From Halichondria panicea (lineage: Eukaryota > Porifera > Demospongiae > Suberitida > Halichondriidae), in the NCBI RefSeq assembly GCF_963675165.1, contig NC_087392.1, positions 5,207,942 to 5,271,941 of the forward strand: 64,000 nt of DNA, written 5' to 3'. A program made the position numbers and the translations under genes. The first letter of the stretch is position 1; the number at the start of each line of letters is the position of its first letter. The notes beneath the pieces are model-generated. The model made no database searches. It was not told the origin of the DNA and saw only the letters and a program-made list of their open reading frames with translations. Shown piece by piece: positions 57,155-60,055 of this stretch.

Positions 57155-57895
57155 GGTACTTACATGTAGCACCACACATCCTGTTAGTTTATACGTATAG
57201 CTACTATAGTGTACACGCAGTATTATTAAAAAACAATCTGGTGTATGGGAAGAAAAAAGCCGTTTGCTACTGCCTAATGAAAGACAGTAGGAACTCTATA
57301 ATTATTGTGATAATTATGCTTGTGTTGTTTTTTTTTGGTTTTTTATTCGCTGCAGGGGTGAACACGAATGATCCAATTACAATAACTATGTACGCTTCGC
57401 AATTTTGTAAACTAATTGATGTTAAAAGTAAAACCTATTTACATGGTGATCTTCGATATTACAATGTTGCAATTAAGGAACGAATAATTAGTGAGTGGTC
57501 ACGTACTTGGTAGTGATTGCAGAAAGATCAAGGAGGAGCGAGCTGGTAGCTGGTAACCAAGCAACAATAATTATGATGGGTGTGGGGACAAGGCTAATTA
57601 ATGTACCAAGCAACAATATTATGATGGGTGTGGGGACAAGGCTAATTAATGTACCAAGCAACAATATTATGATGGGTGTGGGGACAAGGTTAATTAATGT
57701 ACCAAGCAACAACATTATGATGGGTGTGGGGACAAGGCTAATTAATGTACCAAGCAACAATATTATGATGGTGTGGGGACAAGGCTAATTAATGTACCAA
57801 GCAATATTATGATGGGTGTGGGGGCAAGGTTAATTAATGTCCCTAAATTAATTCACGATTATTGTACAGTTCAGAGCAATTTAACATCAGAGCAA
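57155..57895. repeat. Spacer with a 44-48 bp tandem repeat (about 57570-57835)
   Basis: Unit with ATTATGATGGGTGTGGGGAC and AAGGCTAATTAATGTACC repeated about six times. Before it, a hydrophobic open frame at 57241-57513 has no ATG at its start and no support. Confidence 0.8.
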
Positions 57896-57980
57896 AAGTT
57901 GACAAAAATAGAAACATCTGCACACACTCGTCTGCAGAACACAGATTGAGAGAGCATGCATCATACACCATTGCCAACTT
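57896..57980 (-). promoter_or_regulatory. SECIS element, type II, 3' UTR of the selenoprotein gene
   Basis: On the minus strand: lower stem AAGTTG (57980-57975) with CAACTT (57901-57896). SECIS core ATGA at 57964-57961 faces GA at 57918-57917, allowing tandem G.A pairs and a U.U pair. Upper stem TGCATGC.CTC pairs with GAG.GTGTGCA (two wobbles, one mismatch). An unpaired AA at 57947-57946 lies 13 bases after ATGA. A further small stem TCTG/CAGA with a 7-base loop closes the top, which makes it type II. The element starts 35 bases after the stop codon. Confidence 0.85.
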
Positions 57981-58015
57981 CAGCTATTAAAGTTGACACA
58001 GATTGCTCAAAGTTT

Positions 58016-58960
58016 TTAGGGCTTGTGTGCTTTGTTGACTTGCTCCAAACACTCCAATAGATTGGTAACGTCAGGACGATCGTACTGTTCCTTGCTTCTA
58101 TACATGTAGACAGCAGTTCCCTCTGAGTCGCTAATGAAGTCCCCTCCAATCACAGTGACGTCATCTCCTGGCCAGGCAAACCGATCGACCCTACCACCAA
58201 CCACAGCCTCAGCATAACCAATAAATACCTTGAGGTCCCAGGCCACGCTGACCAGTCGATGGAGTCCAATATGTCTGTACAACTGCAGGTCTTGATCCAA
58301 TAAAAGTGGGAGTGAGCAATCGTACTCTTTAAACCATCTCAGCCCCCCTTCCCGATTTCCACTAGCAACCACCACCACTTGACAGCCCAATTTGTTGAAA
58401 TCACCCAGCTGTGCTTCGACGGCTGCAATGTGATTGGTTCACGGGCGTCATACATAGTGTTTGCGGAGTATAAACAGCGTATAGGGTGTCTTCTCCACAC
58501 AGCTCTTCAGAGACACAGTGTCACCAGACTTAGTTTCAACGAGTGCTATATCCATTGGAAACTTCTCCCCGACATCAATTACATCCAAAGCCGTCTTTTC
58601 TTCGTATGACGTCATTTCTTGATCGAGCTCACTGATCAAACCGACCCATTTTTCCTCGGCGGCTAACAACTCTTCCACATTTTCTTGTACTTCAACATCA
58701 GAGAACATGCCAGCCCACAATGACTCCAACTCTCTCCTGCTCTTGACTCCAGCCGTTCGTAGACAGGCCACATAGAGGTTGACCGGGTAGACACACATCA
58801 AACCATGCGGATCATCTGATCCACGGGACTTGACAAAGTCGTTGATACTTGGAGATGCTTCTATTGCTTTGCGCCCGTCTTGCACCATGCTGCTAAGTCC
58901 TTTAGTTAGTGTCTGCACAGCTTGCAGCAGGCAGGATCTGAGCTCAGTGTCTGCAGACAT
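58016..58960 (-). CDS. SELENOL: Selenoprotein L-like, UxxU thioredoxin-fold protein
   Basis: One exon, 314 residues when two in-frame UGA codons are read as selenocysteine: 58450-58448 (Sec171) and 58441-58439 (Sec174). The reading continues in the same frame on both sides, ending at a TGA at 58018-58016. Around them the sequence is TLFILRKHYV-U-R-P-U-TNHIAAVEAQL: a beta strand then the redox motif and a helix, as in the peroxiredoxin-like 2 / AhpC-TSA group. VVVVASGNREGGLRWFKEY and LPLLLDQDLQLYRHIGL follow, typical of that fold. Residues 1-140 are an acidic, helical N-terminal part. UxxU is the hallmark of SelL, where a diselenide can form. A SECIS lies just downstream. The enzymatic substrate is unknown. 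An ordinary gene caller would split this into two truncated proteins. Confidence 0.9.
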
Positions 58961-59140: not shown

Positions 59141-60055
59141 ATGGCTGATCTTAGCCCTAGAGAGAGAAAGTCAAGGTCTCCAGTAAATACTGTGAGGAAG
59201 TCAAAATCTCCAGTAACTATGAGGAGGTCAAGATCTCCTGTAACTATGAGGCGGTCAAAATCTCCTGTAACTGCTGCGAGGAGGTCACGATCACCAGCAG
59301 CTCTGAGGAGGGAAGCCAGGAACAGCAACATAGACAAGGAACCACCTCCTTTGGTGGACAGAGAAAAGGTGACTATCCTACTCACAGACAAGCAGTCCGA
59401 TTCATTATCCCCCCTCATATCATGCAGACATGTCCTTTGCTATTGAGGGTGTTTTGCAACGTTGGGAGGCACCATCGCCCTGACGAGTTCACTAGACATA
59501 GAGTGCCCTCCAATGAGCTGCAGATATACACATGGTGAGTTGTGTGTACACATACGTTACATCTGAATGCTTTATAGTACACAAATGGCCGTTTAATTAT
59601 AATACCATTCTACAAACCCAGCTAAGCGCTTCTTTTTTGCTCGAATCGGCATACCTCAAGGTGACATATTTTCGCGAGTATTAATTAGAAATGCTATGAA
59701 TAACATTAATTTCATTACTAGGCTCTCGTTAATTTCTTGTACTAGAACAGCTCGGCCTGCCACGGTTCCACTCTCATGTATTGACCCCCCCCCCAGGCTT
59801 GATTGCAGTCTGAGGGAGCTGATGTCACTGATTAGAGAGGTCAACCCGGACACCCGGCCCAAGGGCACTCAGTTCTCCTTCTCCACTGTGTACCCTGACA
59901 TGCGTAGGGGGGGCTATCGACTCAAGGAACTAGGTAAGACGCTCTCTGGCAAGAGGGGAATGGATGATGATACGACTCTCTACTCCAGAAAGTTTAAGAT
60001 TGGGGACTTTGTTGATGTTGCTGTAATACCAAGGTCAAGGAACAGACCCTATTAA
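59141..60055 (+). CDS. SAP18: SAP18, Sin3/ASAP complex subunit with RS/SP-repeat N-terminus
   Basis: Exons 59141-59368, 59428-59534 and 59797-60055 give 197 residues. From VDREKTCPLLLRVF to the end it closely follows SAP18: GRHHRPDEFTRHRVPSNEL, QIYTW, LRELMSLIREV, GTQFSFSTVYPD, GGYRLKELG and the final NRPY. SAP18 is a ubiquitin-like-fold subunit of Sin3-HDAC corepressor complexes and of the ASAP/PSAP splicing complexes with RNPS1 and acinus or pinin, in the nucleus. The family is normally about 150-170 residues; here the first 60 or so are an SR-like tract, with RRSRSPVTM-type units repeated about six times. This resembles splicing-factor RS domains and may be phosphorylated. An alternative start is unlikely because the repeats are in frame and follow ATG directly. 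Confidence 0.93.

Follow-up and report, generated by a model that had tools for sequence, protein, structure and literature searches.

Does a reading frame that is broken in its middle by two closely spaced UGA codons belong to one selenoprotein gene or to two truncated hypothetical genes? The question is raised by the minus strand of a 64,000-nucleotide stretch of Halichondria panicea DNA (contig NC_087392.1, positions 5,207,942 to 5,271,941), hereafter the window, in which a coding sequence at 58016..58960 resembles that of selenoprotein L (SelL); positions are those of the window unless a contig (C) or a locus (L) is named. We read this sequence as a working selL gene in the nuclear genome of an animal, with a probability of roughly 0.94. 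The reading draws on a frame that continues through two UGAs, a 3' hairpin shaped like a selenocysteine insertion sequence (SECIS) element, coding sequence conserved before and after the UGAs, the existence of two paralogs, and the presence in the genome of some of the selenocysteine (Sec) machinery. SelL is the best reading of the gene, placed by a SelL-related profile and by published descriptions; the gene is genuine, has good support and is unremarkable within its family.

The frame runs from 58960 to 58016 (minus) as 314 codons, interrupted by TGA at codons 171 (58448..58450) and 174 (58439..58441) alone, and it closes with TAA at 58018-58016. It is apparently a single exon, since it aligns with its paralogs over nearly its full length. 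Since a TAA precedes the ATG by two codons, the frame begins at this ATG, barring an upstream exon. The two UGAs form the motif U171-R-P-U174 in the context HYVURPU, and GC content at codon position 3 is equal on either side of them (0.51 before, 0.51 after). A preliminary description of this DNA had proposed a continuous frame with two UGAs nine bases apart and had foreseen that naive annotation would yield two truncated open reading frames (ORFs); the frame is as described, and a plain ORF listing gives exactly two fragments, 58448-58960 and 58016-58390. The spacing by itself is weak evidence, because the window has 14 runs in which 250 or more codons pass with neither TAA nor TAG, and two TGAs three codons apart occur in 2 of them, the second of these being a RhoGAP-domain ORF whose TGA is an ordinary stop near the ORF end. 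What decides is conservation past the UGAs.

When the genome was searched with the window protein, three genes were recovered: the window copy on C16 and paralogs on C9 and C15. The C9 paralog (C9:5962994-5963893; L013:1989-2945, minus in L013) is 36% identical to the window copy and carries USPU with two UGAs, while the C15 paralog (C15:5547674-5548639; L014:2148-3137, plus in L014) is 32% identical over its unspliced frame and carries UGPC, encoded by UGA and then UGC. The first UGA of the window gene is aligned with UGA in both paralogs, the second with UGA in C9 and a Cys codon in C15. The preliminary description had named as fatal to its proposal the lack of a SECIS score together with the lack of any homologue carrying U or C at the two positions; these two copies are such homologues. 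The C15 paralog likely has a 51-nt intron (GTATGC...TTGTGCAG, 17 in-frame codons), as judged by eye and from an alignment gap. In all three pairs, similarity is higher past the UGAs than ahead of them (44 against 28%, 40 against 30% and 34 against 29% of residues) and codon position 2 differs least; the strand TLFIL is unchanged in all three copies.

Beyond the stop codon, scanning and folding located a SECIS-like element (57897..57981, minus). Its helix I extends from 57981, the 35th base past the stop, to about 57897; the core AUGA lies at 57964-57961, 51 nt beyond the stop; helix II has 11 positions with one mismatch; an apical AA at 57947-57946 is followed by a mini-stem, and the 3' GA is at 57918-57917. 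All the features previously claimed from the letters, namely a SECIS starting 35 bases after the stop with an ATGA core, unpaired AA and a mini-stem, could be found. The element scored 40.7 in a consensus scan whose home-made rule was composed after the hairpin was seen and had no calibration against established SECIS elements; the best score elsewhere in the window, over both strands, was 28.5. With the same strict rule, 6 Mb of simulated sequence (first-order Markov from the window dinucleotide frequencies) held no site of at least 40 and three of at least 35. The minimum free energy of the hairpin has a z-score of -2.77, with 1 of 200 shuffles equally stable, and it is the one SECIS-like site, in two helix-length readings, within the first 600 nt past the stop, which we assume to be 3' untranslated region. 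The C9 paralog has a SECIS-like site 48 nt beyond its stop (core GTGA, score 41.4). No site for the C15 paralog was returned by the strict scan; a relaxed rule, which accepts any letter before TGA, waives the first pair and gives five sites of at least 35 in 6 Mb of simulated sequence, places one 51 nt beyond its stop (core TTGA, score 36.0). When the whole stretch was folded, C15 was unusual (z -3.57) while C9 was not (z -1.15, 29 of 200 shuffles as stable).

The protein obtained by reading through both UGAs matches Pfam AhpC-TSA_2, its best Pfam match, and AhpC-TSA above the cut-offs, and it matches NCBIfam SelL_rel_redox (NF040769) with an E-value of 8.5e-29 over residues 141-305. The fragment past the second UGA matches the latter on its own (4.6e-21), and residues 1-170, before the first UGA, match no NCBIfam family. 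A peroxiredoxin/thioredoxin-fold domain (residues about 125-314; 58019..58588, minus), delimited by Pfam, NCBIfam, the structural model and structural matches, is preceded by a region without an NCBIfam family and with helices in the model (residues about 1-124; 58589..58960, minus). In this AlphaFold2 model, and by structural matches, the fold is predicted to be that of a peroxiredoxin with U-x-x-U at a helix start, which is the CxxC position; N-terminal residues 36-57 have a predicted local distance difference test (pLDDT) value below 50. A sequence search of solved structures gave weak matches only, with ResA at E 0.2, or 0.014 when an alignment was used. Compared with NF040769, a prokaryote model to which the redox domain aligns over positions 8-173 of 173, the window protein is longer by about 120 residues at its N terminus and carries two Sec. 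The earlier proposal of a selenoprotein L with UxxU and a 3' SECIS, cut in two by naive ORF calling, is supported.

In such a gene, the SECIS would recruit SBP2 and EFsec carrying Sec-tRNA(UCA), and a single element would serve both UGAs, each read as selenocysteine. The product would be a peroxiredoxin-fold redox protein in which Sec171 and Sec174, standing where the active-site helix begins and thioredoxins have their CxxC, may be joined by a reversible diselenide. SelL is cytosolic in zebrafish. Among the required components, a tRNA-Sec on C17 scores 73.4 bits, above the gathering score, and has the anticodon UCA according to ARAGORN. The tRNA-Sec model also matches in all 14 control genomes, a set of prokaryotes, and above the cut-off in 5 of them; three further above-gathering matches in the present genome coincide with tRNA-Ser genes. 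SepSecS is represented by eight consecutive exon matches on C2, none above the cut-off singly and one containing TAG.

Several results weigh against a selL gene. The NF040769 score of the window protein (100.4 bits; 119.2 and 74.9 for the two paralogs) is below the curated cut-off of 120, so that the protein is a relative and is not placed in that subfamily. The same model gives below-cut-off matches in 7 of the 14 control genomes, and weak matches to it therefore mean little, although the E-values obtained here are not weak. The five AlphaFold2 models range in mean pLDDT from 71.9 down to 48.0. Rfam returned no family at gathering score across the window, and for 57800-58100 it listed no SECIS family even at E up to 10. 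The selD model matched two exons on C7 weakly (32 and 29 bits, one of them at 3583425-3583598, minus) and also matches in all 14 controls, so that SPS2 is identified by a motif instead: some 0.6 kb upstream of 3583425-3583598 (L029), an SPS2-like exon reads LKGUGCKVP with an in-frame UGA, which we take to be the SPS2 motif. On this basis SPS2, the Sec-making enzyme, seems to be itself a selenoprotein. Finally, a candidate intron of 210 nt (GTGAGC...TTGCAG, ending ...CACATTGCAG) spans the two UGAs.

This last point belongs to the view that splicing excises the UGA region and that no selenocysteine is made, which we regard as very unlikely. Within the gene, 216 GT-AG pairs of 30-300 nt would remove both UGAs, and 65 of these keep the frame. 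The view can call on a 31-nt pair (GTATGA...TTGCAG) that takes out both UGAs, on a strong-looking donor, TCA/GTGAGC, common to four of the frame-keeping pairs (the 210-nt pair being the shortest), and on the likely intron elsewhere in the C15 paralog. However, the 31-nt excision shifts the frame and yields a product ending at residue 196; the shortest frame-keeping pair, of 45 nt, removes VURPUTNHIAAVEAQ; and the 210-nt one would remove residues about 110-179, a large share of the redox domain that includes the invariant TLFIL. All 65 in-frame pairs would excise the active site, and every such excision would leave the SECIS without purpose. Transcripts with an intron removing the UGA region were what the preliminary description had itself offered as a refutation, and as far as GT-AG pairs of 30-300 nt can show, this refutation did not come true.

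We give equally little credence to a second alternative, in which the gene encodes another peroxiredoxin-like selenoprotein, either SelU/PRXL2 or a sponge AphC-like protein. AhpC-TSA_2, which we take to cover PRXL2 as well, is the top Pfam match. Sponge AphC-like selenoproteins have been described, according to excerpts of PMC3473315. On the other hand, the best specific match is SelL-related, and a pair of Sec separated by two residues and served by a single SECIS corresponds to SelL as described in PMC3473315 and PMC3316567. Moreover, the genome holds a distinct candidate for that family, with exons at C3:7040899-7041171 (minus; L018) and a few hundred bases upstream in which an in-frame UGA gives RFGUVMCR. 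These exons are presumably SelU3/PRXL2B-like. SelU/PRXL2 proteins are defined by an RFG-type motif that contains UxxC or CxxC; the C3 exon has UxxC in this setting, whereas the window protein lacks the motif and has UxxU in HYVURPU. The earlier label 'peroxiredoxin-like 2' is a loose one: AhpC-TSA_2 does match, but the best specific match points to SelL.

Least probable of all, at a marginal chance, is a decayed gene, with the UGAs as nonsense mutations and a relic downstream of them: plain translation does halt at residue 170, but the 314 codons hold no further in-frame stop, the portion past the UGAs is the better conserved one, a paralog with no more than 36% identity has its UGAs in matching alignment columns, and a SECIS-like hairpin stands at near-equal distance in all three copies. 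Two more general explanations were rejected. Reassignment of UGA as a general code was discarded because the 913-residue RhoGAP ORF of the window terminates at UGA, and bacterial contamination in view of the 5.8 Mb contig, a SAP18-like ORF nearby, the hairpin of eukaryotic 3' kind and the Wnt genes of the genome. Wnt gave ten matches above the cut-off in this genome and none in the 14 prokaryote controls. To our knowledge Wnt genes are found only in animals, and they show no more than that the source is an animal; that it is an early-branching one is plausible.

Relatives were also sought outside this genome. In a genome-contig collection, a scan with the single protein gave 14 pattern matches and a scan with the three-copy alignment 231, none of them confirmed; of two scans of viral contigs, one gave 184 pattern matches with none confirmed and the other no pattern match; and plasmid and phage collections held no match to the SelL-like query. 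As regards published SelL, the preliminary description had suggested that finding the family in an early-branching animal would widen its range. This is not supported, as PMC3473315 (2012) already tabulates one SelL each in a sponge (Amphimedon), a placozoan (Trichoplax), an anemone (Nematostella), an annelid (Capitella) and amphioxus (Branchiostoma), and none in Lottia. The excerpts available of four other papers mention SelL in Ciona expressed sequence tags (PMC2874816), vertebrate SelL confined to fishes with its two Sec served by one SECIS (PMC3316567), a diselenide protein of aquatic organisms (PMC2397514) and SelL among the families common to prokaryotes and eukaryotes (PMC2398784). Aq.SelL of Amphimedon queenslandica is of the same family, in an early-branching animal of the very kind proposed; its SECIS core is GUGA (PMC3473315, in excerpt), which the C9 paralog shares, as against AUGA in the window copy. 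The window gene has in common with SelL/SELENOL of fish and aquatic invertebrates the two Sec two residues apart, the one SECIS and the thioredoxin-like redox domain, and no defining difference was seen in a comparison based on published descriptions. Taken alone, it is one further record in a family already listed from sponge to fishes.

Around the gene, a minisatellite at 57556-57840 (48-bp unit, 6 copies, 95% matches) lies about 55 bases past the SECIS-like element. On the other side, an ORF on the plus strand (59141-59446), containing 27-base repeats encoding RRSKSPVT-like serine/arginine (SR) repeats, lies head to head with selL and is followed by the SAP18-like ORF at 59696-60055. Elsewhere in the genome, C8:493345-521186 carries 7 clustered long open frames of Peptidase_C1 (papain-like) type, seen among the 30 of 77 Peptidase_C1 matches examined; in one of them (L046), Ser replaces the active-site Cys (CGSSWAF), and the expected silicatein-type active site was not seen among the same 30 of 77. 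A tight cluster of tRNA-Ser genes with anticodons UGA and CGA occupies C8:5704687-5706891.

Three SelL copies in this genome contrast with one per genome in those invertebrates, 5 of the 6 surveyed, that have SelL (PMC3473315), and in searches of open-licence papers, mostly at the level of listings, we met no account of an animal with three SelL genes. We lean towards an old three-gene SelL family that splits its redox chemistry, with two diselenide forms (URPU and USPU) and one selenenylsulfide form (UGPC), each having its own SECIS-like hairpin with the cores AUGA, GUGA and UUGA, respectively. Shchedrina and colleagues are said to have mentioned, in an abstract of 2007, SelL-like proteins in which Cys takes the place of one Sec or of both, and a UxxC member is hence not new in kind. 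Gene callers split such genes, so that their correct annotation must include UGA read-through and a SECIS. Diselenides are uncommon in nature, and a genome that combines two UxxU SelL genes with a UxxC one is a usable comparison; the three-gene set merits specialist attention. If the proposed split is true, it would provide a natural series within one animal for asking what a diselenide gains over a selenenylsulfide, and also whether read-through of one or two UGAs is tuned by the nucleotide that precedes UGA in the core of the SECIS.
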